Source: Phorcus lineatus (lineage: Eukaryota > Mollusca > Gastropoda > Trochida > Trochidae). Taken from it: a stretch of DNA of 64,000 nt. Positions 16,711 to 59,132 of the stretch are shown piece after piece (within the stretch, counting starts at the first letter, position 1; every line of letters starts with the position of its first letter). The notes beneath the pieces are model-generated. The model made no database searches and had not been told where the DNA came from. It saw nothing but the letters and a program-made list of their open reading frames with translations. The DNA lies in assembly GCA_921293015.1 (NCBI GenBank), contig OV121090.1, forward strand, positions 4,836,001-4,900,000, in the 5' to 3' direction. Made by a program: the position numbers and the translations under genes.

Positions 16711-16920
16711 TTTAAAGAGCCACTCCGTGAGTTGTTTGAGTCATATATTCCAAACTTAATAAATGGTGTCATTTGAAGTATCGACTGTTACCAAACAGAC
16801 ACATTTTAAAGCTTATTGTTTTTTTACAGTGACCATGAGAAGGTAGAACGTCGCAATTATGATCGAAAACTGGACAGTGACGCGCGCCAAATAGTCAAAC
16901 GTAATTTTTTTAATCCCACA

Positions 16921-28372: not shown

Positions 28373-31300
28373 TCACTTGTCAGATTTCGTGAACTTATAC
28401 TGTTGTGACAAATTCTTCTCTTCATACGGAGGGGGCTGTGCCAAAGGCGCTTGGCCGGGTATCTCTTCATATGGAGGGGGCGGTGCCGAGGGTTCTTGCG
28501 AGTACGTGTTTGTATATGATAAGGACGGGGCTTGATTAGTTTGGGGCGGGGCTTGATTAGTTTGAGGCGGGGCATAATGAGTTTGGGGCGGGAATGTATA
28601 GATTGATTGCGGTTGTGGCACGCTTATTGGCCCGGGGGTGATGTAGTTTGGTTGAGCAGGGGTTCCCGGCGGTACAGTATTTGAGAATTGATGTAAAGGC
28701 ATCGGTTGGCTTGGACTGTGAGATTCTCTTCCGACAGCATTAGGGTTAACAGTTTGAGGCGGTATCTGAAGCGCAGTTCGTCTGCTCTGTTGAAGGAGAA
28801 TAAGGTTAAGTTATTTTTGGTAATACATATTAACGTTTGATACCAGGACAATATGTAATTTAGTTTAGGGTTCAAATATTTCATTAAGAGATATTTATCG
28901 ACTGAAATGCATTGTAAGCGTCAATTTTATCTATCAAGTATCTAAACAAGACGTTAGAATTTGGAAAGAAAACAAGTGTCCTTAACTTTTAAACAAAGGT
29001 ATACAGTTTAGTTGTTTTTGGTTATATTTATTGACTTCCATTCAATAAAGTGACCTTTAATAAGCCGCTTTATGCCATTCTAACGCTTTTGCTTTCATTT
29101 ACATTTTTTCTTCATTGAAACAATCAAAATAAATTGAAGGGGCAATGCCAAGTGAAAAAATATTTCTTCAAATATTCCGCAATGAACAAAAGTTAATGCC
29201 AAATGTATTATCTTCAGGGGGGTCAAAACATTTCAAGATTCCATCTGATCATCCGTAGTCGTAAAGAAAATATCGGTAACGAGCAAAATCCTCTGGCGGC
29301 CATTTTTGTGTGAACACCTTTCAGTTTTTTTAGGTCGGGCGTTTTGCCTGAGACGTTCAGAATTGATGGAATGACAATGATGTACAGTTTACCTGCTGGA
29401 GGTGTATATTTGTTTGACGTCTCTTGTATGCCCTATACTTTACAAACGCCATCGACCCGAAACAGCTGCAGAAAAGGATTGGCAAGATGATGGTGGCGTA
29501 GGAAGGGAACACAGATGCCGTGTCAATCTCGTGACTTGGACTGAACATGTGTACGCAATCACTGCCGTCCCCGCAGTTGTCGTATCCATTGCATTCAAGT
29601 TGACCGGAAACACATCTCTTGTTTGAACAAAGGAAGTCGAAGGGTTGACAGGTGCCTGTTAATAGAACGAGAAATTTATAGAAGACATTGCTTTACCTTT
29701 AAACGAGTCAAAACTAAGTAGCAGTTACTTAAACAAGGACCTTTTTGGCCCATCTGGCTGTTAGGGGGTTAATCTAAGGCTCGTTTCATCAGATACAGAA
29801 AGAACTGAATAAAGAATACTTTTTAAGAATGTGAAAGGAACTTGTGTGTTGATTATTATAACATAAACTATAAAAAAAACCTAGTGTATCGTCTCTCATA
29901 AATAGCAAGAAGTACTTTCAGCTATGTATACAAATGAGGATTTCGTTGCAAGACAAAGGAACTTTTATTTACAAATTGTCATTGAAATTTTATAAAGTTG
30001 TGTTTAATGCAACACTAACCTCTGATTTAATTCTAGTACTTTCAAAGTTAGAAGTTAGTCGTGCAATTAGAGACGCCGTTTCCAAAGTAATCGTTCGCAA
30101 AGCGTAGGTCATTTCGTATGCTTCGGAATTATAGAATTTATTCCAAATGTACGCTTTCTAAAAAGCCTTTTTAAGGAAAACGGTTACATTATTTTGCAAC
30201 AGAATCAAGGCTTAGGATTCGGTGACAAGCAAGTTTTTAATCCAAGAATAATTTTCATTGGTCTAACTAAAGTAAAGTGTTTGTTGTAGTATTTTACCAC
30301 TCAGGAAATCTACCAAAACGCACACGCATTAAAACAGAGGTTAGTGTATTAAGATCACATTTGAGCTACTTCTGTTTGGAAAGAATGCCATCATCATGCC
30401 AAGTTAATACTTTATTAACAAAGGCAGAGTTTTGGAAGAATTTGTTGATTTTCTAAACAAATCATCTAGCCTACCCCATGAAATGTAGAATGACGTCACA
30501 AGGACTGTGACGTCATTATTGTGTCCACCATCACTGCTGACAACAAGAACGCCTGTATTCCCGGGGGTGATAAATGTGTTGTTCACCGAAGACGAACAGA
30601 TGTTGAATGCCACAACTGTAAAACGAAGCAGATTTCGTCAGTTACAGATACTTTACTAATATTTTTTATCAAATGGGTTGATTGGTATTAAAAAGCAAAC
30701 TTTATATCATACATTTATGAGCTTGATAAAAGTCACATTAGGCATAATGTGTTTAGTTAAGCGATTAGCTTAAAAGCCAATTTGTATCAAGCGAAAGAGC
30801 CAAAAGTGTTGCGCAACGGATTTATAAAATAACCAGTTTTTCCGAAAGCGCGAACAAAGCGAGGAACTTCCGTTTGCAAATAAAGGAACACTGGTTTTCA
30901 TATATTCGCTGCGCAACGCTAAAATTGGCCAACTTTGATGAAATTTAGCTTTCCGGAAGTCTGGTAACCCTGGTAGTCTGATGCAACAGAAAGTAAAAGA
31001 CATTAGTGATTGACTTTACCAAATATATTTTCATTATTGTTTCTGCCGTAAGTTTTGCTCATTCTTAGCTCCCGTAAAGATCCAAAACTTATCAAAGTTT
31101 AACGTATCAATGCTTGAAAACGGAAAACAAAATTCACCATCATTACAGTGTCAATTATCAATTATCAATTTTTCCTTTTGCCTACTTTTTAACGATCTAA
31201 GCTCTAAAAATGGTCACCATCAATCTCATGGTAAACGATTTAATTTGTCTCGCCCCTGTTAGTACAAATCCTGCTACATCAGCGTATTTGTCTCCGCCTA

Positions 31301-37537: not shown

Positions 37538-40500
37538 TCATGGTTTCGTGAAAATGTAAAATAGTTTCTCCTTAAACGTTCGTCGGTTTCTCAAAAGCTT
37601 TTCCCTATATTTAAAGGTATAGTCCCATTCATGCGGCATCCAGGTACCGTCCGGTTGTGTTGAAGCCTTGACTTTCTGAAAGCATTAATAAATAAAAAAT
37701 GCAACTAAAGTTGTTTTTTTAACAACGAATGCATCAATAGCTTATGCAACGTGTTATTAAATTTTCACAGTAATGTTTTAAAACCTGTTCCTCAACAATT
37801 AAGTAGGATTGAGTACTAATGACCCCAATTGGAAAAAATTATGTTTAAACTGATAATGCAAGATTATCGAGTTTCATCATCTTTGTATACATTGTATTAT
37901 ATTGGGATGACGATTCTAATTTTGTTCACTAATAATATATTACGTTCGGTTGTATAGAAAAAAATTAATCACCTTTGCTAGTGAATTCCCTTTCTGACTT
38001 GCTATTACCCTGGCCATGAAGACGGGTATAGGCAAGACGGGTATGAGAGCCACGAACCACCCGACCACGCTGGCATATTGCGGGTAGACGTAGGAACCAT
38101 AAGTGGGTGCCTTGTACTGGGATAGAGTCACAAACAGGATTATCTGGGGATAGATTGATCAGCATGTATTCTCGGATATGGTAACAACCGGATGATCCGG
38201 TGATGGATAATCACCTTGGTACTTAGTTACATAAAATAAATAACATGAATATTTTGGGATAGATTTGTTGAAATGATGTTTGGATAAAGTTAAACTGAAA
38301 TGATCACAGTATTCAGCAAGTGTTGACTTCAACAAAGAAACTGGCGGGAAAATCTTAAATTTGTCAACAGGGCCCCATTGCACAAAGCACTAAGGTAACC
38401 TTAAATCACTGAAGTAGCCTTAGCAAACGGTTAAAGAATGGCACTATGGTTAACCTTAGTGTTGTTAACCTTGGTGCTAAGTAGCTCTGTGCAATGACCA
38501 CCAGGGCTGTAAAGGCAAGCTAAATATAAACGATACCTTATTGTTTTGATAAAAAACATTGTTATGGATGACAATTTCTCTGTTTATTTTCCCGACGTTT
38601 CTGGGCAACTTCTTGCCCCTTCATCAGGCTGCTTGCAAGAAGTAGCCCAGAAACGTACAGAAACGTGTAGAAACGTCGTGAAAATAAATAAAGAAGTTGT
38701 CATCCATAACATTGTCTAGTATCACTACACAAACTTCTAAATTCCTTTGAAGAAACGTATTGTTTTATTACGAGTAAATGATGCCACCTACCATAAGTAA
38801 CATTGGTGTGACGAAGGCCCAGAGAATCTTCACTAGAACGGGTAGTTTTCTGCCCATCATCATCTCAATATCACTGTCTAACTGATGGATACCTGGCAGA
38901 AGAACAAGCTATTAGACAGTAACACAATCTAGTCATAAAGGTCAACACTGCCAACAATCGTGTTAAACAGTGATTTTCATTCTTGTTAAACTGTGACAAA
39001 GTCTTTTTAAAACGTGGCATATATGTGTTACAAGTACATATTTAATCATCTTAGGCAGACCAGTCGTATGAGACGGTTGCATAGCCCAATCGGCCTTTAA
39101 AAGCCGAACAAAATCGTGTTGGACATTGACACACTTAGACAGTCTTGTCATAACGTGCTACAGTTGATTACGACAGGGGAACAGTCGTGTTAGACGGAAC
39201 ACAATTGTGTTAGACTGGAACACAATCGTCTTGGAAGGAAACACAATCATCTTGGACTGGAACATAATCGTGTTGGACGGAAACACAATGGTGTTGGACG
39301 GAAACACAATCGTGCTGGACGGAAACACAATCCTGTTGGACGGAAACACAATCTGGTTGTATGGGAACACAATCGTGTTGGACTGGAACACAATCGTGTT
39401 AGACTGGAACACAATCGTGTTGGACTGGAACACAATAATGTTGGACTGGAACACAATCGTCTTGGAAGGAAACACAATCATCTTGGACTGGAACATAATC
39501 GTGTTGGACGGAAACACAATGGTGTTGGACGGAAACACAATCGTGCTGGACGGAAACACAATCTGGTTGTATGGGAACACAATAGTGTAAGACGGGAACA
39601 CAATCGGGTTGTATGGGAACACAATAGTGTAAGACGGGAACACAATCAGGTTGTATGGGAACACAGTGTAAGACGGGAACACAATCGGGTTGTATGGGAA
39701 CACAATAGTGTAAGACGGGAACACAATCGGGTTGTATGGGAACACAATAGTGTAAGACGGGAACACAATCGGGTTGTATGGGAACACAATAGTGTAAGAC
39801 GGGAACACAATCGGGTTGTATGGGAACACAATAGTGTAAGACGGGAACACAATCGGGTTGTATGGGAACACAATAGTGTAAGACGGGAACACAATTGGGT
39901 TGTATGGGAATACAATAGTGTAAGACGGGAACACAATAGGGTTGTATGGGAATACAATAGTGTAAGCCGGGAACACAATCGGGTTGTATGGGAACACAAT
40001 AGTGTAAAACGGGAACACAATAGTGTAAAACGGGAACACAATCGTGTTATATGGGAACACACTCATGATAAACGGAGACTTTGCTCTGTAAGACACTGAC
40101 ATATAGATGTACTATGGTTACACTATTGCGTTAGACAAGCATAATGTTTATTCACTTATCTAACATTCAATGTGCTTATATTACTGAAATAGTTGTTAAC
40201 AGAGTCATATTCGCGTGTATATTAGCAAGATACAGATGGCATCACTTACCATAGATCCAAACTGCAGCGACACATTCCACTGTACAGTAAATGAAGAGAG
40301 ACATTGCAACAAGATACCAGTCGAGCAGTTGGAATATGTACGGACCTCCCTGTAATGAAAGTCACTACTAGAAATCCTAATATACAGTGCAGTAACTTCA
40401 ATATACGAACTCCCTTATAACAATTGAAGACGTGTAAGATTTCAGCAAAGGTGTTTCATTTGGATTGTAACATGGGACATGCCACCAGCCTTTAGTAACC

Positions 40501-43500
40501 ACTGTTTGTGGCATTTCAAATATTTGAACTATAACAATATTAGAAAAAGGAAAAAAACTCAAGGCACATATTATCAAAATTCAAGTCAATTCATAATGCA
40601 TTATCAAAACATAGTAATCACTGTTGTATCCCAATTATGGATCTATCCCATCTTAAGATCTGATGACTATCGGTTCTATCCCAACTATGGATATAGCAAT
40701 TTCTATTTTGGATATACAAATCTAAGATAGGAAAGCAAGTTAATATTTTGATTTTGATAAGAATACTGATTTAAAAATTTCAATCTTGCAAGAAATGACT
40801 CTAATGAAAAAATTATTTTGATTGGAGAAAATATTTTGATGAAATATTGATTTTGATGAAAAAAGTGAATTTGATAATATTTATAATATTTTGAAGGCGA
40901 ATAAAGTTAGATGGTGTACAGCTGCATGCCAAAAGTTTGTTCACATACATGAATATACTAGTGCAAATATCATATTATTTGAGATGCCTTTGAGTTATCG
41001 TAGCGTTGCGAAAAACCAACGTATAATATTGAATTTTTTAAAACACATATGCAGATCCATTCTTCATTAAGGCAAATGTTTCTCGTACCCGACAATTATC
41101 CGTAACAGTTTTGGCTGGTCATTAAAGGTCAAAATTCCGAAAACACTCATTTTTGCCTACCTGAGTGCAGATGATACAGCCAAGCAGAAAGGCCCCGACA
41201 CACAGACCCGCGGTCACCAGAGTCCGTCTCCGGCCCAAAGTATGGGGGAACTGGTCAATGATAGCAGTGGACACGATCTCCGCGAATAGGAACTGCAAGG
41301 TGAATATGTAGAAATTATCATAACTTGCATAAATTTAAAATTTAGGTTACGAGATGAGTTCGTTACAGTTATCATTCGAGTTGCAGGTGAGCATGAATAA
41401 GATATGTGAAATGCAAGTGCGATATTAATGCGATCATGATTTGCGTAGTTCTCATAACAATAATTTCAAACATCAACATAAAAATATTACGCGCTTAACA
41501 ATCATTTTATGTGTTTTTGTTACTTAATAAAGTAAGCATTCTATTAATGACGCTTCCAGATAAACAAACGATAGTCCGTCGCGGATCTAGGGATTTTGAA
41601 AGTGGATTGGTGGGGGCCTATCCCCTTTTAAGATCGATTTGGGCAAAAGAGGAGGGGACGATTACAAAATGAACTCCCCCCACCCCAAATTCTTGAATTA
41701 TCACACAAGTGACTTGTACTGTGGTTATAGGTAAGTATCGTTACAAGATAGCTATCATAATATGTACATGTAAAGGACCGTGAACAACTCGGTTGCTAAC
41801 CACAGGAGAACACTAGTTGAATAGACTTGAATGATGAGTATGACGGTCCCCCTAGCTGATGGTCCGGTCCCCCTACCTGGGAGTCCGGTCCCCCTAACTG
41901 GGAGTCCGGTCCCCCTAGCTGATGGTCCGGTCCCCCTACTTGGGAATCCGGCGCCCCTACCTGGGAGTCCGGTCCCCCTACCTGGGAGTCCAGCCCGACG
42001 GTGAGGAGCATGAGGAAGAAGAGGAAGGCCCACAGCTGGGGGAGAGGAAGACGAGACAGGGCCTCTGTGTACGCCACAAACCCGAGGCCAGGACCTGGAT
42101 TGGAGCAGCGAATCACGTGACATTTGTAAAATCACAATTGCATTATATTTGTTCCGCCAAAGCATTTACATTGCGGTGTATGAGGAATGCTTTGGTAATA
42201 AGTTATAATTTGCCTGAACCTGGTACAAGGCAAAACAGTTACAAATGATAGGAATATGGAGGCACAAATTTGGAATTAACATTTCAAAAAGTCTGAAGTT
42301 GACATATGCCGAGTAATGAACAATTTCACGAACTCGAGGTCGCCAATAACCGAAGCTTGTGAGACGAAACTGACAGTTTGAATAACTGTGCCCGGAGAGA
42401 TCTCTATTATGCGTAGCGTAGATTAAGGACTTCATTTGATAAGATTGTCATTCTCATATGGTTGATCTTTTAATAAACATTTAAAAACATGATGCATGTC
42501 GATAAGACATATTTCTACATATCTGTAGTTTCTATGTCTTCACCAAATGTCCCACTGTTGCGTATGATTAAACATATGTCTCTCTCTGATCTTCAATTCG
42601 AATATTAATCGTAACCTAGGTACAGAACAATTCAAAAGTATCGTACGGTAAGAGTTAACAAAATTGAAATTATCCAGAAAAACCCACCTGAGGACACGAC
42701 TTTAGATATTACTACGCCCAGTTTGTTAGCCATGACACCCAGGACAGAAAAGGTGACAAAACCAGCGAATATGCTCGTTCCTTCTGAAGCAGCACAAAGT
42801 ATCACAGAGTCTCTGGAAGCAGGAAGTGATGAAATACCATTGTTAGGAAAAAGGGAATTTTACATTTCTTTTTTAGTTTTTAAAACGAGATTGAAAATGT
42901 TTTCGATATATGCCTTTCTGATAGTTCACAAATGTAACATTGTTTTATTGCGGATCAAACCATCTCCAGTAGTACACATTCTTGTACTTCTTAGGTCTTT
43001 GCAGGATTCGAACCCATACACTCAAGGCAATAAAGGCAGAATCAAATTCACGAGCATTTAACCAGCTCACCCATCTCGCCTGGACATCGTTTGTCAATTA
43101 TGTTTGATTAAAAATCAGTGCAATACATATAAATCGTTCAATTTTAGCATCTGTCGATTTCAAGTTGACAAAGGTTTTATTCTGTACAAAGACGACTTTG
43201 CTTTTAGTTATTCGAATTGAAGAACAGATGTTTAAACCGTACCTATATACTATGGATTTGTGAATATATTTTCGCCGTATTTCAATTTCCGTTTATCTAA
43301 TTGATGCTCGACTTACCGTCGTGTATGTTGACCCTTCGTTGGTTAGAAAGAGAGAAGCCAAATTGGATTTTATCATAAGTAGGTCATCAAACGGCGACGT
43401 CGTTTCGAAAGTTATCATTTAAAAGCCTCAGCTGTTTCCGTATAATTAGGGAGAAAACTTTTTTTATTCGACTTTTGACTTTGAACTTTCTTTCAGCCTT

Positions 43501-46500
43501 TCTGCCTGGCTATTTGATTATTCTTGACAGAACACGATCATGGCAGAGGTTTGGGTGACACTCAGCAAACATTCGATCTAAGAAGTGTTTTTATTAGCTG
43601 ATATTTTGTCTTGGAGTCTTTTGCAGGTAGGGAATAGAGCGTATGTTTCAGAAGCGTTCTTACTCAAACAGAAGTTAGTATAGGAATATATCACTTGATC
43701 AACAATTGTAGGGAGAGAGTTAAAGTTCATATGGTGAAATATACAAGTTAAAGGTATTCGCACCTGAGAAGAGGTTCATTGAAGCGGTTGTAGCTGGACG
43801 AGGTGGTTATGATACCCCAGCCCGGGCCCAGTGAGTAGAACACCTGGATACACGCCTCTAGCCATACCTGGGGATCATACAGGTGTTTGGTCAGGTGAGT
43901 GAGTAAGTTTAGGAGTTAACGTTTTTCCACTATTTTTCTGTTATCAAACACTCGATTTGGCTAAAACTGACAACGTTTATGTCTCATAGAATATTGTTTG
44001 GCTTTGCTACGTGTCGAAATACAACAAAACCTGATTTAAGATATTCATCCCCAATCATATTTACGTGTTTTCGATAATACTTTAGAAAAGTCCTTGGACA
44101 GGTTTAAAAGCCTTACTTGACAGGTCAAATTTTCAAATCAACTAGTTAAAAGACCCTGTAAAATTACTCGTCTTCTAGTCATATATAGAAGAGTTTCGAA
44201 AATTATTTACTTGATGACTTTCACATATTGTTCGTCAAAAATATTCGTTTGCCTTCATCTTCACATTAGTTAATGCATTTCAGATACATTCTGAATGTAT
44301 TAATGCATTATACTGCTCGAGTACAACTCATTTTACCTGTGCATGCAGTAGTTTGCTGAAGTCAGGGGTGATGTAGTACACCAGTCCGTCCACAGCACCG
44401 GGCAGTGTCATGACCCGGATGAAGATGGCGGTCAGTAGAATGTAGGGCAGTAGAGCTGTCACATAAACCACCTGTGTACAGATGAGATGTGACATCATCT
44501 TTTCTATCATCATTATTAAACCTTTGCAATACCTCGATGTATTTATGCATGTCATTTATTGCATGTCATTTATGTATGTCATTTTATGCATCAGATATAG
44601 ATTCAGATTGATTGCCATGCCATCATTTAGAAACCTACACCAATCATATCTTACGTTAAACTTGTTATAGAAAACGTACTAACTGGGCATATAAGATTAA
44701 GCAGCTATTTTACGCTTATGGGTTTGGACATGTCTGGGTACAACAGGGAGTAGGGGATAAAGTTTTATTTTTAAAGATATTCAATGAAAGCTGAATTGAT
44801 TGTGCAAAACGAGACTGGCACGCAAAACTTACAGATAAAGTCTCGCCACAATTCTATTCCACAATAAAAAAATAACTTATATACTTATATATAACATAAA
44901 TAATATAAAGTACAGGAAAGCATTGCTTATTTTCAAAAGCTGTTACATCCGTCTTGGAATACAAAAATGGTTTTTGTGACTGAGAAATCTGATAGTAAAT
45001 GTTTCATTATGTAATGTAACTGAAGATGAAATACATATTGTATATCATTGTCCAATGTATCGAACTCGTCGTGATGATGTACCGTTATTATTTAAGAAAA
45101 ATATAAATAGTGTTCAGTATTTAATGGAATCTTGATGGGAAATTTTTATCAATTCTTAGATAACGTGTTTCGTGTACGAATGTGCATGTGTGTTAAATTA
45201 TTGGTCAAATGGCCTCGAAACAACAAAACTGTTGAATTGAATTGAATTTAATTGAAATACCTCGATGTGCCTTTCGCCGCTAATGGCTGAAATATTGCCC
45301 AAGCGGCGTTAAACAATAACTCACTCACTCGATGTGCCTTGACCATATGATTCACCTGTATACAGGGTGAATAAGGAGGAAACAGGATGAGCATGCACAG
45401 ACAGGGATATTATGAATGATTGGAGATACCTCTAATGTCAATTTGTCTATTTCATTTATATTTGTAATTTGGGGGAGGGACACCTTACAGTTTGTAAACT
45501 AATGCATATGTCCATCATTTGTCATGGCCGTCTTTATCTCGTACCAATACGAGGGGGGCTTGGAACTATAATTTGCCTCATATGGAACTTTTCAACATAT
45601 AACAACATTATAAGGCATGTTGATCTTAAAGGCACTATTGCACGAAGTTTTAAGGGAAATACCTTCATCTTACGATAACGAAAACAACTGTAACTTATTG
45701 CAAGACAATATCTAAATCAACAAGATAACTCATTAATAAACGATGAGTTTAGACTAAAATGGTCGCATCCAATTTCCCCTTGAAACGTGATCATTTTGTT
45801 CGGTTCGGGTCGATTTATGAAATGTTGACCCAATGAAATAAGTACACACTGCATTAACTAATATTTATTAAGAAAATTTTAAAGAAATCCTAAATTGCAC
45901 AGTGTCGTTTAGAGATAAAAACATCACAGTGGCCGTGCATCTAATCTTACCTTGCCCGTTGCTTTCACTCCACGGAACAAACACAGGAAGATGATGACGT
46001 AGGAGGCAAAAAGACAGCCGAGAATGTGCCACTGCATAGACCCCATCTTGTGAAGTCCAGCTGATACACCAAGCACGTTGTATCTGGAAGCAGAAGTTAG
46101 CAATGGTTGACTTTGAGAAGGTTGCCATAAATCGCTTTTAGACTTGTCATAGACCATGGTTATCATTTTCTAAATTTTAACTTTTTTTAAGCGTTAAACT
46201 AATGCTGTATGAAACTTTGTGCTCGGTGGCATCGCTCAACAGCAAGGGTAGACAGTACAGAGCACTATATATATATTTTCACTATCACTTGCCATCTTTG
46301 CCAGCAAGGCATATCATACGCAACTCTCAATCACCGGTAATCTAAGCCTTGTCGGATATTCGCAACTTCTCTGTACTACATATTTAATCTACTACAACGG
46401 ACCTTGATGATTCTTTTACAGATATTTTCGCGGTTGCTACTCATCGCAATCTTACGCGCTTCAGACACACCAAAAATGTTGGTGCATACAGCAAAATTGA

Positions 46501-49360
46501 ATTAACCATGATGGTAGAAGTTGATGACTCACTGGTAGAACTCCTCCACTGCAGAATGAGACAGGGTCCTGTTCTTCCACATATCTGCGACACTGATGTT
46601 GGTTTGAGGGAGGGCGTTGGTGATTAAGTTTGAAGTGTTTGTTGATGTAGAGTTTGTGAGATCTTTCTGGAAACTGTCAATGTCCTCCACACACAGGTCG
46701 GTGTTCCATGAATTCCCACACGTGGTCCAAGGCAACACCGAGCTGCACGATTTGATCATGTAGTAGATAGGCCAGGCCAGGAGAACGTTATAGTAGGGTA
46801 GACACACAATCACCTGTAGCACCGCCCCTATACCTATACCTGATGTACAAATAAAGAGGTGTCGTAGTAGGGTAGACAAACAATCACCTGTAGCACCGCT
46901 CCTATACCTATACCTGATGTACAAATAAAGAGGTGCTGTAGTAGGGTAGACACACAATCACCTGTAGCACCGCCCCTATACCTATACCTGATGTACAAAT
47001 AAAGAGGTGTCGTAGTAGGGTAGACAAACAATCACCTGTAGCACCGCTCCTATACCTATACCTGATGTACAAATAAAGAGGTGCTGTAGTAGGGTAGACA
47101 CACAATCACCTGTAGCACCGCCCCTATACCTATACCTGATGTACAAATAAAGAGGTGTCGTAGTAGGGTAGACACACAATCACCTGTAGCACCGCTCCTA
47201 TACCTATACCTGATGTACAAATAAAGAGGTGCTGTAGTAGGGTAGACACACAATCACCTGTAGCACCGCCCCTATACCTATACCTGATGTACAAATAAAG
47301 AGGTGTCGTAGTAGGGTAGACACACAATCATCTGTAGCACCGCTCCTATACCTATACCTGATGTACAAATAAAGAGGTGCTGTAGTAGGGTAGACACACA
47401 ATCACCTGTAGCACCGCCCCTATACCTATACCTGATGTACAAATAAAGAGGTGTCGTAGTAGGGTAGACACACAATCACCTGTAGCACCGCTCCTATACC
47501 TATACCTGATGTACAAATAAAGAGGTGCTGTAGTAGGGTAGACACCAATCACCTGTAGCACCGCCCCTATACCTATACCTGATGTACAAATAAAGAGGTG
47601 CTGTAGTAGGGTAGACACACAATCACCTGTAGCACCGCTCCTATACCTATACCTGATGTACAAATAAAGAGGTGCTGTAGTAGGGTAGACACACAATCAC
47701 CTGTAGCACCGCCCCTATACCTATACCTGATGTACAAATAAAGAGGTGCTGTAGTAGGGTAGACACCAATCACCTGTAGCACCGCCCCTATACCTATACC
47801 TGATGTACAAATAAAGAGGTGCTGTAGTAGGGTAGACACACAATCACCTGTAGCACCGCTCCTATACCTATACCTGATGTACAAATAAAGAGGTGCTGTA
47901 GTAGGGTAGACACACAATCACCTGTAGCACCGCCCCTATACCTATACCTGATGTACAAATAAAGAGGTGTTGTAGTAGGGTAGACACACAATCACCTGTA
48001 GCACCGCTCCTATACCTATACCTGATGTACAAATAAAGAGGTGCTGTAGTAGGGTAGACACACAATCACCTGTAGCACCGCTCCGATACCTATACCTGAT
48101 GTACCAACAAACGGTGTTGCAGGAGGGAATCGTAATAATAATAATAATAATACTGATACTGGTATTGATATTATCCTTTCCATAAGAAATGACGATTTAT
48201 CAGAAAAGTCTTTGAAGGACATTTAAGATCGGAACACATTAGAACAAAAAACTCTGAATAACAACATCTTGTACTGTGACAATCACGCTTTTTATAGAAA
48301 ATACCAAAATACCAAAGAGGTTGTTATCCAGAAACATAATTTTTATCTTAAATCTTATAAATCAAATTTGGCTTTAGGATAAAATTGATCGTTATTCCTA
48401 AAAATAAGATGGCTACAGCCACACTCACCTTTAAAGAGCGGACAAAAGTTCCACACATGAACAGCTCCCTTACCCGAGAACTGACCGAGACAAGACTCGA
48501 GGTAGAACATGGGGAAGGCGGTGATTACCAGGAAGAACAGGAAAGGAATCAGGAAGGCGCCTGCAGGAAGAAATTGAAAACAAGTTAAACAATTGAATTA
48601 TGTGTCATTTCATTTCAATTTTGGGATTCAAGAAAATCAACTAGATAGTATGTTTGATGACTATTCACAAAGCAAGAATGAAGAATAAATCAAAACTTAA
48701 ACATTATACAAAGTCAGGGGAGATACAGATTATCAATGTTGACTTCGTTATCCTTCTGTACACCAATGGAATTTGAAATCTATTTTTAAATGAGTGATAC
48801 GGCATTCACTGTAGCAACAACATTTTGCTACATGTATATATGTTCATCGAGATATAAACACTTGATAAAGAATGGAGCCAACGGCTATGAACTCATATTC
48901 ATGAATTTGTAAAGGCAGATTTCGAAATTGATCAAAATGCTGTTTAAAACCTAGAGATAAATGGGATTAAATGATTATGATTCAAACTATTATGCCAAAT
49001 GTTCCAGATTTGTTTCTACAATTTAGCCGCATACAAATAATGAATTGCCTATATTTATCATAAATGTAAGAGAACATGTCATGCAGCAAATTAAATTCAT
49101 TTGGCAAGACGTAAAATACCTCCCCCGTTTCTGTTGCAGATGTAAGGAAACCTCCAGAGATTTCCAAATCCGACACAGTATCCAACCATTGACAGAAGGT
49201 AGTCCAGCCTCGATGACCACTGTCCACGCTTGTATACATCGCCCGCGTCATCTTCACCCGAACCATTCCGGCTATCGGTGGACTGGACACTGGTAAACGG
49301 GATCCCCTCGGAATTCTGGATCGTTTCATCGCCCTCCTTATAAGGGAACTCTTTGTTCAT
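37538..49360 (-). CDS. Sodium/chloride-dependent SLC6 neurotransmitter/amino-acid transporter
   Basis: Thirteen coding exons join in frame to 643 residues: 49360-49120, 48560-48429, 46839-46533, 46083-45951, 44471-44337, 43867-43764, 42812-42688, 42094-41982, 41292-41161, 40349-40250, 38892-38792, 38143-37973, 37675-37538. TM1 reads [20 protein letters not shown]; Gly sits where monoamine carriers have Asp, so an amino-acid, glycine or GABA-type substrate is likelier. TM2 has [15 protein letters not shown]. Exon 3 encodes extracellular loop 2 with the [12 protein letters not shown] disulphide pair and Asn-X-Ser/Thr sites ([14 protein letters not shown]). TM6 is [14 protein letters not shown]7 is [11 protein letters not shown], unusual at the chloride site. 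The start chosen is ACAATGAAC at 49360. An acceptor-like CCCTTTCTTTAAG lies 15-20 bases upstream, so a 5' non-coding exon is likely. Two splice junctions lie in tandem arrays (exons 3 and 8). The exact subfamily is not settled. Confidence 0.93.
38368..38510. mobile_element. Short palindromic MITE, copy 2
   Basis: CATTGCACAAAGCACTAAGG on the left is answered by GTGCTAAGTAGCTCTGTGCAATG, inverted, on the right. The centre AAAGAATGGCACTA matches 23865-23985. It lies in SLC6 intron 11. Confidence 0.65.
38557..38715 (-). mobile_element. Foldback with hammerhead-like core, Penelope-type terminal motif
   Basis: The arms are inverted: TGTTATGGATGACAATTTCT on the left and GTTGTCATCCATAACA on the right, with CGACGTTTCT and AGAAACGTCG inside. 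On the minus strand the centre reads CTGATGA, then a hairpin GGGGCAA-GAAG-TTGCCC, then A-GAAAC. This is the order of the conserved hammerhead ribozyme core. Such motifs are known in the terminal repeats of Penelope-like retroelements, which is my basis for the name. The base pair next to the core is a mismatch, so activity is doubtful. The right arm carries three AGAAACGT copies. It lies in SLC6 intron 11. Confidence 0.45.
39170..40075. repeat. 21-bp minisatellite, about 43 units, SLC6 intron 10
   Basis: Units are of the type GGAACACAATCGTGTTAGAC with a G or A added. The right half is organised as 42-bp dimers alternating an ATCGGGTTGTATG form with an ATAGTGTAAGACG form, while the left half shows a longer block duplicated (39207-39360 versus 39436-39590). 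Because 21 is divisible by three, several frames stay open, including 314 codons on the minus strand. These are artefacts of periodicity. Confidence 0.95.
40918..41154. mobile_element. Half MITE ending at the exon 9 splice donor
   Basis: From CAGCTGCATGCC through AAATTCCGAAAACACT it matches the left 40% of the MITE at 880-1471 (for example TAGCGTTGCGAAAAACCAAC versus TGGCGTTGCGAAAAAGAAAC). The right half is absent. Homology stops at 41154, and the SLC6 exon 9 donor GTAGGC occupies 41160-41155. Confidence 0.8.
41845..41991 (-). repeat. 21-bp minisatellite of the exon 8 splice donor, 7 units
   Basis: In the gene's sense each unit reads GGACTCCCAG/GTAGGGGGACC or a variant. The exon-proximal unit is the real exon 8 end (LDSQ). 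GT at the donor position survives in four of seven units (proximal units 1, 2 and 3, and unit 6) and is changed to CT or TT in three. Units carry DSQVGGP or DHQLGGP in frame with exon 8. Confidence 0.95.
42999..43082 (-). mobile_element. tRNA-like sequence, probably a SINE head
   Basis: On the minus strand, GAGATGGGTGAGCTGGTTAA resembles a class II tRNA A-box region, and GGGTTCGAATCC is a perfect B box. About 40 bases lie between, and no stable acceptor stem is visible. A tRNA pseudogene is the alternative. It lies in SLC6 intron 6. Confidence 0.4.
44790..45255 (+). mobile_element. LINE 3' fragment in SLC6 intron 4
   Basis: One frame gives [20 protein letters not shown], the 'C-x-x-C ... E-x-H-x(3)-H-C-P-x-Y' knuckle that closes many LINE ORF2 proteins. 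Upstream remnants such as [14 protein letters not shown] are in the same frame. It ends in a TTGAATTGAATT microsatellite, the usual CR1-style 3' end. Several stops upstream show decay. It is antisense to SLC6. Confidence 0.6.
45256..45345 (+). mobile_element. LINE/SINE 3' tail with CACTCACTC ending
   Basis: CGCCGCTAATGGCTGAAATA, then a GCGGCGTTAAACAATAACTC stretch, then CACTCACTC. Such tails are very common in gastropod genomes as I know them. A shorter related phrase on the other strand, GTGAGTGAGTAAGTTTAGGA, lies at about 43895. Confidence 0.5.
46789..48110 (-). repeat. 74-bp tandem array of the exon 3 splice acceptor, 18 units
   Basis: Unit starts are at 46801 and every 74 bases after, with two 73-bp units (47541, 47762). 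In the gene's sense each unit is about 24 bases of intron end (CTCTTTATTTGTACATCAG) plus the first 50 bases of coding exon 3 (from GTATAGGTATAGGG). The lowest-coordinate unit runs into the unique part of exon 3. The highest (48057 on) is the most diverged. Reading from any 74-bp upstream copy meets TAG at the start of the next copy after about 26 codons. Confidence 0.97.
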
Positions 49361-49608: not shown

Positions 49609-49804
49609 AAATGAAATTTCTGTCGTTTGAGCTGGGCGAATAAGAGAGAAATTGAATTCTCTTATGGATCAAACCAAATAAAAAAGGGAGGTAATGCTTG
49701 TATAGAGGGCGCTATGAGGTGTCTATAAATGTGATGACAGAGCGCGGGAAGTTTCATTCTCGGCTGCGACAACTAGTGTATCAAGTTGATGAAATGTCAT
49801 ATTT
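49609..49804 (+). repeat. 195-bp direct repeat, left copy
   Basis: From AATGAAATTTCTGTCG to GAAATGTCATATTTTA it matches 51685-51880 at well over 90%, with one 4-base indel. It contains GTGTCTATAAATGTGATGAC, a TATA-like phrase, then GAAGTTTCATTCTCGGCTGC about 25 bases on. I cannot tell whether this is a duplicated promoter or the terminal repeat of a non-coding element. The 1.88 kb between copies holds no recognisable gene. Confidence 0.75.
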
Positions 49805-51684
49805 TATTATGCGGGACACGTTGAAGTTATTGCAAGTTGGCTTTGGTATTGTGTTTTTATAGACCTCATTAATTCTTTTGGAGCAGAGTGCAATGACATA
49901 TAGACAAAGAAACATTTGAAAAATGTAGATATTATTGGAAGATGGCCATGAGTATTTCGTGAAGTGTGTCGGTTTTATTAACTGCAATATTTAGATGGCT
50001 GGACCGCTGATGTTTTGCTTGTAATGACAAATTCACAGTCCGTTCTCCGAATATTATGTTGTATCGACTGGTACACAGTCTATCGCCTCTACTACACGCG
50101 TCATCTTCCCTGAAGCAAGGTGCACGTGCTTCTCGTGCGAAGACCTGGTTCTTCAGCGTTGAGGTTGCCTTCACAGGACGCACTCGACAGCAAAGCATAC
50201 CAATGAAAGTGATCAAAATCGACAAAATGGTAAATTATGTTGTTTCTATTTACTTTTAGGATGAATAAAGTCATGATTGTGCTGAATTTAAAGTACGTGC
50301 CAGTTTAAGACTATGTCAAAGTGTTCTATCCGGCTTATGCTGTATGTACGAGTAGAATGAAGTTGTCATGTGTCATGTCGGATTATGTTTAATTCTTGTG
50401 GAAAGTTAACGAATATGTTTTTGTATTGGAGCATTAGAAGTGAAGACATCTGTACCTAAGGTTATTCAAGACTATGGGAATGCACAGGTGAACACCTTTA
50501 GTTGTCATGTCACCGTGGTTGTTTCAAGCTTGTAGCTTTAATAGCCTCTACTACTAAGTAAATTGTTAACGCATGAGGGGATACCAATATTTGCTGTGGT
50601 GATGTGTGCAGATGTACGAGTTTGGAGAAAAAGGCGTCCCTTCTTTATCAGATGACATTTGGCATATCTAAGGATAAATCACAGCTTAAATGGATACTTG
50701 CACTGTTGGGTTTTTTAGGGAAACAAAAAACAAAAAACAACAAAACCAAATGTTAATTGATTCTTCAATGACAAATTTCTGTTTTGCTATTTATTTCAAC
50801 CCTATTTGAGTATGTGAATGAGACCTCTTGGGTTTTGTAAGCTAAGCTTTAAGAATGAAAAGGTTATGCAGGTGAGGTTGAATGCGTAGTGATTGCGAGA
50901 ATCATATAGCCGGGTCCACGAGAGGACCTTCATGAACTAAAAAAAGTGATTTACAAAGTTTGTTTTACTCATTATCAAACGGGGTGACGGTTCGCTGAAA
51001 GTCATGTCAAGTATATGTTTGCACATATGTTATACAAGACCTAATTTGATCACCATGTGACCAATGAACGTATTTGCTGCTGTTGTATCATAATCGAAGG
51101 AAAAATCATTTCTGATGACGGAAAAATGTTTACAGATCGTTTCCCCATAAGGAGCCAGCGCTATTAAAGGAAACAACTTACTGAAATAGAAAATTTCACC
51201 ATCTGCCTAGCTATTGTTGTGTCCGAATGATGCGTTCATGTCGGTGTGAAAGATGCCTTGCATCGTTCAATGTGCTGAAGGGAAAATGCACTGTTTGGAT
51301 GTTGAAATGCTTGTTTGTGAATAATGTTATAATGTAAACTTGTACATGCTCAAAGCTCGTATTATTGATGTTGACTGATTTAATCCATACAATCTCCTTT
51401 CTGTTTCAGGTATTACGTGTTACCATTGTTTCGGTTTCTTAATGTACCTCGGTTAAATGTAGAGGGGTTTATGAAATGCGTAAGTATGAGTTATTGAAGC
51501 TGACAGGATGCTATCTACTTGTTGCGGAAATTTGATCGGTAGAGGCAACGGCTATCGAGTAAAGTACTGCTTACTTGATTTGAAGTGTTTTGTCATTTCC
51601 ATTCCCTTTCTTTTTATCTCGGCAAGTGTCGCAGGAGACTTCCAGTTTAGTGTTTTATTTGATTTGTAGTGGATGGAAAGAGAA
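49805..51684. other. Sequence between the 195-bp direct repeats
   Basis: No gene, RNA or tandem repeat is recognisable. Open frames stay below 100 codons. Less AT-rich than the first 16 kb. Confidence 0.4.
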
Positions 51685-51880
51685 ATGAAATTTCTATCGT
51701 TTGAGCTGGGCGAATAAGAGAAATTGATTTCTCTTATGGATCAAACCAAATAAAAAAGGGAGCTAATGCTTGTATAGAGGGCGCTATGAGGTGTCTATAA
51801 ATGTGATGACAGAGCGCGGGAAGTTTCATTCTCGGCTGCGACGACTAGTGTATCAAGTTGATGAAATGTCATATTTTACG
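51685..51880 (+). repeat. 195-bp direct repeat, right copy
   Basis: Matches 49609-49804. It is followed after about 35 bases by the 18-bp minisatellite. Confidence 0.75.
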
Positions 51881-51927
51881 TTAAATCGTGTGTATATATT
51901 TGAAACGAGAGATGGTGCATGGTTGAG

Positions 51928-52795
51928 TGAAGGTTTATGGTGCAATGATGGTACATGGTGCAATGATGGTACATGGTGCAATGATGGTACATGGTGTAGT
52001 GAGTTGCAGCAATAGTACATGGTGCAGTGATGGTACATGGTACCGTGAGGCGCAGTGATGGTACATGGTTCAGTGAGGTGCAGTGATGGTACATGGTGCA
52101 GTAAGGTGCAGTGATGGTACATGGTGCAGTGATGGTACATGGTGCAGTGAGTTGCAGGGATGGTACATGCTGCAGGGGGTGCAGTGATGGTACATGGTGC
52201 CGTGAGGTGCAGTGATGGTACATGGTGCAGTGATGGTACATGGTGCAGGGATGGTACATGATGCAGGGGGTGCAGTGATGGTACATGGTGTCGTGAGGTG
52301 CAGTGATAGTACATGGTGCAGTGATGGTGCAGTAAGGTGCAGTGATGGTACATGGTGCAGTGATGGTACATGGTGCAGTGAGTTGCAGTGATGGTACATG
52401 GTGCGTTGATGGTGCATGCGGTAGTAATTGTACATGGTGCACTGATGGCACATGGTGGAATGATGGTACATGGTGGAATGGTTGTACATGATGCAGTTAT
52501 GGTTAATGGTTGAGTGATGGTACATGGTGGAGTTATAATACATGGTGGAGTGATGTTGCATGGTTGAGTGATGGTGCATGGTGCAGTGACGGTACACGGT
52601 GCAGTGACGGGGTATGGTGCGGCGACGGTGCACCGTGCGGTGACGGTACATGGTGCAGTGAAGTACATGGCGCAGAGATGGTATGTGCATTGTGCAGTGG
52701 TTGTGCATGGTTTAGTGACGGTACATGGATGCATGGTGCAGTGATGGTGTACAGAGAAGTGATGCTGTATGATGGAGTGATGGTGCAGTGTAAAA
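51928..52795. repeat. 18-bp minisatellite, TACATGGTGCAGTGATGG type
   Basis: About 45 units of TACATGGTGCAGTGATGG with frequent inserted GAGGTGCAG or GAGTTGCAG pieces. Units degrade gradually to the right (GTTGAGTGATGG, then GTGGAGTGATGG, then GTGCGGTGACGG). The divisibility by three leaves minus-strand frames open for up to 293 codons of His-Cys-Thr-Met-Tyr repeats, which I do not regard as protein. Confidence 0.95.
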
Positions 52796-53039: not shown

Positions 53040-53280
53040 CGTTATGGCACACGGGCGTGTATCGCTTAGAAATAGCTTAAGAAAGACATATATACCTATA
53101 AACCCTACCCTACTACTATATAAAAGGGGCGTGTATCGCTTAGAAATAGCTTAAGAAAGACATATATATACCTAAAGACCCTACCCTACTACTATATAAA
53201 AGGGAAGGGATGTAACGACCAAACCACCCCATGCTCGAACAAAGTCAGTTTTCGCATCCAAAATAGTTTTTCTGGACAAA

Positions 53281-53574
53281 TTGTTCACTACGATTCGACA
53301 GCTAAATGATTTCCCTACAAAACGAGCTATGGATTGTCAAAATCGGGAAATTATTTCAAAAGTTACATGCAACGACGCCCCGAAAATCGCTACCGCCAGA
53401 TTTTCAAGCCAAAATCCCCACTCACGAAAAACAGCAAAAACTCACCGTTTAACATCGTTTATTGATTCCAGCAATGTTGACAACACCAATCTAGAGCTCG
53501 ATTCGATCGGCGACATCGAACTACATGTTCACAATATGAGAACAGCACCTAATTATTATTTCTACGAGTGTTAG
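53281..53574 (+). other. Open frame in the left inverted repeat, probably non-coding
   Basis: A frame of about 97 codons (LFTTIRQLNDFPTKRAMDCQ...) is present in both arms (mirror copy 58613-58903). The four differences I can place inside the frame are three amino-acid-changing and one silent, which gives no sign of coding constraint. The first in-frame ATG is 16 codons in. No domain recognised. Confidence 0.3.
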
Positions 53575-53664
53575 CTGACATTCTATAAAAAATCATCTGC
53601 TTTGCGGTCGCCTTGTCGGCCATAGCAGTGGCCTTGACATTCATTTGACCTCGTAGCCGCAGCA

Positions 53665-54373
53665 AATAAGCAAGTGAGCGAACTCTGAGCGAACTCCGAA
53701 CTCTGATCGAACTCCTCACAGTCCTTTCAATAGCATGTTTGTAAACAACACAACGTGGTCGAAAAACGTTTAGGATTTTTAGACGTGTCCACCTTACCAC
53801 AAGAAACTTGAGCTGGTTTTTTTGGAAATTAGTCACATATAGTTATTTAAAAGAGCCTTTTGTAGGAGTTTAAATTTTTATGTCTGAATCGGCAAAAGAA
53901 AAAACGATTCTCCAACTCCAAGCGCTTCGAATCACTTCCCTCCGCTGATGGCAGTGCTGGGAATAATTAATGGACCGATCGATGTTTTCACTGATAATTA
54001 TATTCTTTTCTTTAATTGCCATCAATCTATCATTTCATCATCAATTTATCATTTTAATTTAGTGATTGTTTAAACATCTCTAAAATGTTATTTATAAATC
54101 TAATTACTTTGCCAATATTCCATCCAAAAAAACCAATAAGACACGCTTCATTGATCATTGATTTTAGATGAAAGTGCCATGTTTTTAACATATGACAATA
54201 ATACCAACTTTATCGATTAGTTATGCATGCCTCTTGAAAATTTGAAGGTGCTATATCTGTATATTATTATAAAATATATATGTGAAACTAGAATAGGTAA
54301 ATGATTAGTTCAATTAAGTTTGAAACCATTTTAACAAAAGTCTAAGTCACATGATTTTTAATTTGGATTTCAG
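53665..54373. other. Interior of the long-TIR element, left part
   Basis: AT-rich, no open frame of note. Any 5' exon of the unit at 54374 should lie here or in the left arm, but I could not identify its donor. Confidence 0.35.
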
Positions 54374-55799: not shown

Positions 55800-58519
55800 C
55801 GATTCTTTAATATGTTTTTGTATATATACAGACATACAAGTGAGTCCTCAATTAAGAAAACAATACATTTACTTTCATCACTTATATATCAAATTATATT
55901 GATTGTATTGAATTCAATTGATTCTTATTATTTGATATGTGATCATTATAGGTGCCATTAGCCTTCAAAGAACTCAACCTGTGTTTTGAGGAGTGTAAAG
56001 TTAGATATTTCATGTGTTTAATACATGAATTTCTAGCCACCTATGGATAACACCTCCCTTTTCAAAGTTTTAGGTTAATACCATTAACCATGAGTAATTG
56101 TTAACACTTTGCATAACTTAGATGATCAGTAGGTTGTACTTCATAAAAGCCTTTCATGATGTTTTTATGAATATTTAAAAGGTTGAGTTGGTAAATTTTA
56201 AAGGAAATTCAATACTGAATGCAAATACTTTTATGACTATAATATACACGTCAATAATAGGCAAGGAAAGTTTATTTTGGCATAACTTGTAATGAGTGCT
56301 TTACAGTAGGTGAAATATGGACTGGAAATCAAATCTGTTTCGTGCTGGATTTATAACAGATGATGTACAAAGAATGTGTTTTTAGATTTTCAATTAGAAT
56401 TTCTACGTCAAATATTCTATGCCAATTGAATTAAACTGCAAGCAAATAAGTCATTCAATTTCACTTTTCAACTCATCTAGCCTGACATGGGATGGTGTCC
56501 CAATATACTTTTGTGTACCAATTCCTTGACTACTAAGGATTTAAATTTATAAATTTGGTGACCTAAGAAAGGCCTCTGAGGCCACTCCTGAAACCTATTT
56601 TCATTTTTTTTCTCCTAAAGATGATAGTGAAGAAACTTGATTTTTTTTTTTGGTACATTCTAATGAGGATTCTAAACTTTATATTAATATATATATTTTG
56701 TTTGTCCCTCACTAAAGTCACACATGTCATGGCGTTATAAATATCGTCTTCTTTAATAATCTTAATAAAGCTTAAAAAGATGGAATATTTATATGCTCCA
56801 TAAGCGAGTGGTATTATGATACTATGGCTTAGTGATAATAGATTTTAAAGCCTGATTAGCTCCAGGGTCATGGCTCTATTCTTTTAAAACTGAGAAAAAT
56901 ATAACTGACTGATGTGCCTCTGAGCCTGTGAACCTTGTAAAAAAGTTGAGTGTGTATCACTGTTAAGGTTTGTTATTTTATCGCGCTCAACTAAAATTAA
57001 TTCCAGTGAGCATAATTAATTTCTTTGAAGTGTAAAAAAGGTAGAGCCTTCTTTGATTACAATTCTAACCATTACTGACATGTTAATGAAACGAAAGAGT
57101 TTATTGCCTGCAAGGCAAACAAATTCAGGACATTTTGGGGGAAATGCCATCATACGCAAATATTCTAAAAAATATAACTAAATCAGATTTATTGCATTTG
57201 AAACAGCAATTAAAGATACAAGTACTGTGCCAGTCTGGAGATCTGAGATCTGTCACTTCAGACATGCTTTTTTTTACCTTATTACTGATTACCTGATTAC
57301 TTTAAGAATGAAATTTCTTCTCTTATTTATTGGACACACTGTTAATGTTTGTTCCTTTATTGGGGAGAGACTGGCCAAATTGAAGTAAAAAGATACCTAT
57401 CATTGCATGCTCTCTGCCAACAGGACAATTTGCTCTCAACTTAATCAAATCACCTTTTCATGAGGCTAAAAAAATCTACCTTTCAACTAGAGTTATAAGA
57501 AAAGTTGTTTTTTTCAACATTATACATAACCGTTAATAAGTTTTAATGCAGCATATTGAAACTTAATATGTTTTTTGTTGTTTTAATCTTTTTAACTATG
57601 AAAATCAAAATTGCTTCCAATAAGAAGACTAAGTAAACCTTCCAAGCGAGGCATTGCATTTATGCCCCTAACCACCAGGGTGGTTGAACAGTATGAATTA
57701 CAAATACAAGTCATTGTCAATGATTGCTATCCACATCTTTCATGATTTTCATCTCACTCCTGAGCCAAGTCAAAATTGATAAAAATATATAATTCTGTCT
57801 GACCCCTGAAAATTAATATCCCCTTTTTTGTCAAACAGTTTTGATCATTTTAATTATATCACTGTTGTTTGCAGAAATAAAATTAAATCACCAATCTAAT
57901 GGTAAACTTATTTTATTAAATAATGTATCTGAACTGCACATCAAATATTCAACATGGAAGTAGTTTAATTATCTAGAATTAGGAGTTGTTTTCAAATTTG
58001 CCTTTGAGATTCTAACCTCTTTACAAATTCTTTTAATTTTTGAATATTTTCTTTTCCAATTATAAAACATAACTGAGTTTTAAAAATATATGCTTTAATT
58101 AAGAAGGATAGCGAAACCTATCAAGTTAATGTACGTAACAGTTTAATATTTTATATGCCATCACTTTTTGGAGAAAAAGATCAAAACAATATTTTTAGGT
58201 AAACCGAGTAAAAGTCTTTAATAAAACATGAAAAATCATACTAATAAGTATATTGTTCTACATCAGTTATACAAAAAAATTATTGTCAATTAAATCAAAG
58301 GTTATGTTGCGATTTTCTAACGATTCGTTTGACAGTTGCCAGTCGAATAATTACATATTTCTGGAACGTTTAAGAAAAATTTTAATTTGACCCATAGTTA
58401 TATATAAAGAACGAGTTTATTTAATATTTTGGGCTCATTAAAACACACACGACTGCAGAAGGGAATTTAATAGAAAATACTCAATGTTAATTTCTACCAA
58501 ATCCTATAAATTGTAAATC
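55800..58519. other. Interior of the long-TIR element, right part
   Basis: 2.7 kb of AT-rich sequence without recognisable genes or internal repeats. Confidence 0.4.
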
Positions 58520-59132
58520 TGCTGCGGCTACGAGGTCAAATGAATGTCAAGGCCACTGCTATGGCCGACAAGGCAACCGCAAAGCAGATGATTTTTGATA
58601 AAATGTCTGCTATCACTCGTAGAAATAATAATTAGGCGCTGTTCTCATATTGTGAACATGTAGTTCGATGTCGCCGGTCGAATCGAGCTCTACATTGGTG
58701 TTGTCAACATTGCTGGAATCAATAAACGATGTTAAACGGTGAGTTTTTGGTGTTTTTCGTGAGTGGGGATTTTGGCTTGAAAATCTGGCGGTAGCGATTT
58801 TCGGGGCGTCGTTGCATGTAACTTTTGAAATAATTTCCCGATTTTGACAATCCATAGCTCGTTTTGTAGGGAAATCATTTAGCTGTCGAATCGTAGTGAA
58901 CAATTTGTCCAGAAAAATTATGTTGGATGCGAAAACTGACTTTGTTCGAGTATGGGGTGGTTTGGTCGTTACATCCCTTTCCTTTTATATAGTAGTAGGG
59001 TAGGGTCTATAGGTATATATGTCTTTCTTAAGCTATTTCTAAGCGATACACGCCCCTTTTATATAGTAGTAGGGTAGGGTCTATAGGTATATGTCTTTCT
59101 TAAGCTATTTCTAAGCGATACACGCCCCTGTG
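58520..59132 (-). repeat. Right terminal inverted repeat of the 6.1-kb element
   Basis: Inverted copy of 53048-53664, including the doubled 74-bp outer block (GGGTCTATAGGTATAT...GCGATACACGCCCC twice). The inner border is the same GCCGCAGCA phrase in both arms. Confidence 0.9.

Follow-up and report, generated by a model that had tools for sequence, protein, structure and literature searches.

Tandem arrays across two splice sites of an SLC6 transporter gene resemble the mirage minisatellites of amphioxus

The window analysed here, a stretch of 64,000 nucleotides with a G+C content of 35.5%, carries on its minus strand an SLC6 gene whose model is unbroken: 13 coding exons amount to 1932 nt with one terminal stop, the introns have GT donors (12/12) and AG acceptors (12/12), and GC3 is 0.60. 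The Pfam domain SNF (PF00209) matches residues 45-586 of the protein with E=8.4e-178 and over profile positions 1-519 of 524. The domain thus covers the full transporter, which places it in SLC6 (sodium:neurotransmitter symporter). A search of the PDB matched 104 distinct sequences; among the best 60 of these 104, on which the ranking rests, the top chain is glycine transporter 2 (GlyT2, E=6.5e-151), followed by other glycine transporters and then by proline, betaine, creatine, GABA and monoamine transporters. By best match only, the protein would be a glycine-type transporter. An extra exon near 38500 was considered and dropped, since joining exon 11 directly to the exon at 38143 preserves the frame and TM11, whereas the extra exon does not. 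The parts of the gene that are needed in the following are these (a slash in a sequence marks the splice junction):

37538..49360, minus strand: coding part of the SLC6 gene, 13 exons, 643 aa
48429..48560, minus strand: coding exon 2, with the donor AAAG/GTGAGT
46840..48428, minus strand: intron 2, 1589 nt long; the 17 extra array units account for 1256 nt of it
46533..46839, minus strand: coding exon 3, start of TM3 by GlyT2 alignment
41982..42094, minus strand: coding exon 8, ending in ...GLDSQ at the junction, TM8 by GlyT2 alignment

The first-pass annotation had described an 18-copy tandem array made of the end of intron 2 and the start of exon 3. This array is real: Tandem Repeats Finder (TRF) places it at 46791-48111 with a period of 74, 17.9 copies, 96% matches and a score of 2446, the highest among the 28 TRF rows of the window, and cutting it into units yields 18. 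The 74-bp unit with the first 50 bases of exon 3 holds for 16 of the 18 head-to-tail units, but units 5 and 8 are 73 nt long and contain 49 exon bases. Splice-site and branch-point scores, here and below, are approximate matrix scores, and branch points are only loosely defined.

46790..48119, minus strand: tandem array of 18 units, each joining 24 nt from the end of intron 2 to the first 50 nt of exon 3 (only 49 nt in units 5 and 8)
46790..46863, minus strand: unit 18, the exon-joined copy; its acceptor AG ends at 46840 and exon 3 begins at 46839
48046..48119, minus strand: unit 1, the copy at the intron-side edge, the most diverged; acceptor score 6.2 against 10.1

The acceptor AG/GT is unbroken in all 18 units. 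Over positions -19 to +1, units 2-18 share one common acceptor sequence, so that acceptors 2-17 are letter-identical to the exon-joined acceptor 18. This sequence has a matrix score of 10.1, which is rank 3 among the gene's 12 acceptors and about the 99th percentile among 3142 AG sites of the minus strand; the acceptor of unit 1, with 6.2 on the same matrix, still falls within the range of the used acceptors (4.9-13.0). The exon part of the unit also contains, 26 nt from its start, a donor-like CAG/GTGATT, present in 17 of the 18 units (unit 11 is without it) and mid-rank among the gene's 12 donors with a matrix score of 8.5.

It had been claimed that only the copy joined to unique exon sequence gives the transporter, and the paths that we built from the array bear this out. 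Use of an upstream acceptor leads to a stop in 17/17 cases, and inclusion of one to six 26-nt micro-exons does so in 6/6, leaving no productive product among the paths built (0/17 by acceptor shifts, 0/6 by micro-exons). The stop had been expected about 26 codons on, at the start of the next copy. This describes 15 of the 17 upstream acceptors, where the reading frame runs for 25 codons beyond the junction codon and ends at the TAG within GTATAG of the following unit; with the acceptors of the two 73-nt units, 5 and 8, the stop comes only after 74 codons.

The first-pass annotation treated the array as a single oddity, a view that does not stand, since the donor of exon 8 in the same gene is arrayed as well.

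41845..41991, minus strand: second splice-site array, seven copies of 21 bp that contain the exon 8 donor, each with 10 nt of the exon end and 11 nt of the intron start

Copies 1, 2 and 6 of this array retain CAG/GT with a matrix score of 9.0, copy 3 retains its GT within CAA/GT and scores 6.0, and in copies 4, 5 and 7 the GT is gone, leaving CAG/GT in 3/7 and GT in 4/7 of the copies. Splicing from donor 2 or donor 6 would add 7 or 35 residues after GLDSQ in TM8 without a frameshift. In the two displayed alignments both arrayed boundaries are gap-free against GlyT2-type chains, which makes extra residues at the exon 3 and exon 8 boundaries unlikely. Since the 7 or 35 residues would fall in such a gap-free TM8, it appears that a normal transporter is compatible with the exon-edge donor copy only.

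All 24 junctions of the gene were scanned for sequence duplicated in tandem across them (lags 8-120). The score was 318 at the exon 3 acceptor, 64 at the exon 8 donor and 2 at the exon 12 donor, with the remaining 21 junctions all at 0; tandem repeats thus lie at the exon 3 acceptor and the exon 8 donor only. When seeds of the six TRF periods found within the gene were placed in it at random, at least two of them crossed a junction in 3.0% of 200,000 draws; with the three arrays of at least five copies, this happened in 1.0%. Two boundary-crossing arrays in one gene are, by this chance estimate made after the fact, only mildly unusual.

Two further repeats of the gene keep clear of its junctions. 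Intron 10 holds the third large minisatellite of the gene, at 39181-40061, with about 42 copies of 21 bp (or 21 of 42 bp). It lies off all junctions and by eye has no AG in its coding-strand consensus, and so provides a contrast within the gene to the two boundary arrays. A short tandem repeat of 14/27 bp at 44537-44591 ends some 65 nt before the exon 5 acceptor and thus stops short of that junction.

The flanks of both arrays suggest how they might have arisen. In the exon 3 array, unit 1 is preceded in intron 2 by CCCTCCTG, the exon sequence that follows the unit is CCCTACTA, with 6/8 letters alike, and the joint between units reads CCCTACTAC. Slippage or unequal exchange between the first two, a short imperfect direct repeat, could have duplicated the 74 bp including the acceptor. 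At exon 8 the corresponding pair is one GGAC on the exon side and another on the intron side, which could have led in the same way to the duplication of 21 bp around the donor. Both arrays are most likely recombining intronic minisatellites that started from short direct repeats on either side of a splice site.

The later growth of the exon 3 array has left a pattern among its units. Among units 2-18 the mean number of differences is 0.87 at an offset of two units versus 2.88 at an offset of one; units 10, 12, 14, 16 and 18 share a single sequence over 73 nt, and units 2, 4, 7, 9 and 13 form another identical set. This pattern suggests growth by unequal exchange, largely in two-unit steps. The functional copy at the exon edge seems to have joined in this exchange: since unit 18 is identical to units 10, 12, 14 and 16, the working start of exon 3 is homogenised with the array. 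Mutations of the array could thereby flow into the third membrane helix of the transporter.

Tandem repeats spanning exon-intron boundaries have been described in amphioxus under the name mirages and are known there from Adh3, the globins BflGb6 and BflGb9, TnC and PGBD5, as given in excerpts of two reports (PMC3087553, PMC3902484). As in these amphioxus cases, the SLC6 units cross an exon-intron boundary, at the 3' and 5' ends of exons, and many of them retain AG/GT (18/18 acceptors; for the donors, CAG/GT in 3/7 and GT in 4/7). The unit lengths reported for amphioxus, 10-72 bp in Adh3 and 60-160 bp elsewhere (60 and 108 bp for TnC and PGBD5, with copy numbers that vary between assemblies; PMC3902484), bracket the 21 and 74 found here. 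Concerted evolution with a diverged edge unit would be a further likeness, though a partial one: in the acceptor array the internal units are homogenised and unit 1 is diverged. The SLC6 gene has its acceptor and donor arrays on two different exons, and PGBD5 also has two; with 18 units the acceptor array compares with 6 and 3 in the BflGb6 haplotypes and 2-7 in PGBD5. One difference counts against the fit: the exon-side edge unit 18 is not diverged, unlike the edge units of the amphioxus globin arrays. On their shared anatomy we would assign both SLC6 arrays to the described mirage class, with splicing judged here from the DNA alone.

Our preferred reading, which we regard as probable, is that both arrays are mirage-type minisatellites, seeded by direct repeats and carried as intron, with the exon-edge copy being the one mainly used. 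For the splicing machinery the exon 3 array would then be part of the intron, and the exon-edge acceptor would be the main one in use, owing to its position beside exon 3 and the exon 3 donor and because no other choice lets the gene encode an intact transporter. The amphioxus mirages, with the same anatomy at 3' and 5' boundaries and with reportedly normal splicing, are a precedent in favour. The upstream copies would be used rarely or never, and transcripts in which they were used would be premature-stop substrates for decay. Two observations speak against this account. The local sequence does not favour acceptor 18 over acceptors 2-17, and the 24-nt intron part of the unit leaves the source of a branch point for the exon-edge acceptor unexplained. 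The best branch-point match in every array unit has a matrix score of 3.33, compared with 3.55-5.14 in the other 11 introns. Because of this low match and the 24 nt of intron per unit, the branch point would have to come either from the duplicated coding sequence of the array or from a distant site.

It might also be possible that the array acts as a built-in tuner, in which the productive acceptor faces competition from the 17 upstream ones, and the number of units sets the share of mRNA that goes to nonsense-mediated decay. All 17 upstream acceptors are intact and lead to stops, 16 of them are identical to the productive acceptor letter for letter over -19 to +1, and all units except unit 11 bear the donor-like site (score 8.5) that could define a 26-nt micro-exon, again with stops. 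That the AG/GT sites of mirages could serve as cryptic sites has been noted before, in an excerpt of the amphioxus work (PMC3087553). However, RT-PCR and cDNA are reported to have indicated that amphioxus mirages do not interfere with regular splicing (PMC3087553, PMC3902484), and the Adh and TnC mirages are stated to generate no aberrant mRNAs (PMC3902484). A two-unit RNA of 148 nt folds no better than its shuffles (z -0.03), and three of the four kinds of substitution in the exon parts are synonymous versus an expected 0.28, which with P about 0.07 is not significant, the kinds being too few; junction position 50 and the 1-nt deletion were set aside in this count. A tuner is possible but unsupported, as are competition among the copies in the cell and variation in copy number; the amphioxus precedent speaks against it, and we consider it unlikely.

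A second alternative would rescue transcripts that use upstream units. After each splice a donor is regenerated (AAG/GTATAG), so that the RNA could be spliced onward unit by unit until the exon-edge copy is reached. The AG/GT in 18/18 units provides the sites for it, and an acceptor immediately followed by GT has the layout of a recursive splice site, as in the ratchet points of Drosophila (PMC8605326). Re-splicing is reported to be able to proceed even from donors with a poor match (PMC8184009). Compared with the Drosophila ratchet points, however, the regenerated donor is weak, scoring 4.9 and thereby equalling the weakest of the gene's 12 donors, and intron 2 is short with just 1589 nt. The stronger in-unit donor 26 nt further on (8.5, in 17/18 units) would leave a stop-bearing micro-exon; donor competition of this kind is known in recursive splicing, as an excerpt of PMC8605326 describes. 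In addition, a branch point would be required at each step, and the exon junction complex is reported to suppress re-splicing (PMC8184009). We consider such stepwise removal unlikely.

A bolder version, a long shot in our estimation, would make the array an unstable mirage outside the cephalochordates, with 17 equal decoy acceptors ahead of one transporter exon and decoy donors after another; the array length, shifting by unequal exchange between individuals or cells, would then set the fraction of productive mRNA. If true, this would be a length-tunable splicing rheostat that needed nothing but short direct repeats at a splice site as its seed.

Although the array is real, its copy number may be off; that this number is an artefact of assembly is, however, unlikely. 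Near-identical units are easily miscounted, and among the amphioxus cases an assembly error affected one mirage, and a second has 7 versus 2 and 6 versus 3 copies depending on the assembly (PMC3087553, PMC3902484). Against this, the variants of the units here come in an ordered mixture, with alternation in steps of two, 73-nt units at two separate places and divergence at one edge, and the second array of the gene is an independent case.

The arrays also invite comparison with the gain of introns by tandem duplication. In potato a new intron arose from a tandem duplication across an intron-exon boundary, as given in an excerpt of PMC4974935. As in the Rogers model of such gain, the SLC6 duplication crosses an intron-exon boundary and brings along an acceptor and an in-unit donor candidate, and AGGT lies inside the unit. 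Unlike in that model, the gene reads without a new intron or exon, and the extra copies just lengthen intron 2. We considered intron gain of this type for the array and set it aside: the array lies wholly within intron 2 and the start of exon 3, and the gene reads as an SLC6 transporter.

The locus, with 18 acceptors of which 17 are indistinguishable over 20 positions, offers a natural test of how splicing settles on one of them. It is also a sizeable member of a class from which, according to a published proposal, new introns could be built. In the open-access literature we found no mirage outside the cephalochordates, all printed cases that we found being from this group. If the host is not a lancelet, boundary-spanning minisatellites would reach beyond the cephalochordates and be wider spread than the literature found says. 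The low G+C of the window and the character of its LINE frame would favour a mollusc over a lancelet, whereas the GC3 of 0.60 would agree with a lancelet. Gene prediction at loci with boundary-spanning minisatellites calls for care.

The surroundings of the gene are rich in other repeats. Upstream of the SLC6 start codon, an 18-bp-based minisatellite of about 47 copies occupies 51911-52733, and a direct repeat of 162 nt (49645-49806 and 51717-51878, 98% alike) has its second copy adjoining this minisatellite. Three inverted-repeat pairs with arms of 504, 79 and 75 nt, 97-99% complementary and about 5-6 kb apart, connect 53053-53667 with 58517-59092. They look like a recent mobile-element pair, and the frame at 53200-53571 gave no Pfam match. 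LINE remnants are located at 16895-18596 and 20762-21262, with matches to the reverse transcriptase domain RVT_1 (E=5.6e-21) and to zf-RVT (E=1.1e-11). A LINE frame compared with genome contigs gave 44 pattern matches and a piece of the SLC6 gene compared with viral contigs gave 3, of which none was confirmed.

A neighbouring gene is indicated by minus-strand frames at 28376-29692, with an LDL-receptor class A domain at 29360-29692 (E=3.5e-08). Its proline-rich frame at 28376-28810 (minus strand) had no Pfam match; a 21-bp repeat within it, at 28526-28592, stays in frame. Near the start of the window, AT dinucleotides form perfect runs at 825-879 and 1503-1559.
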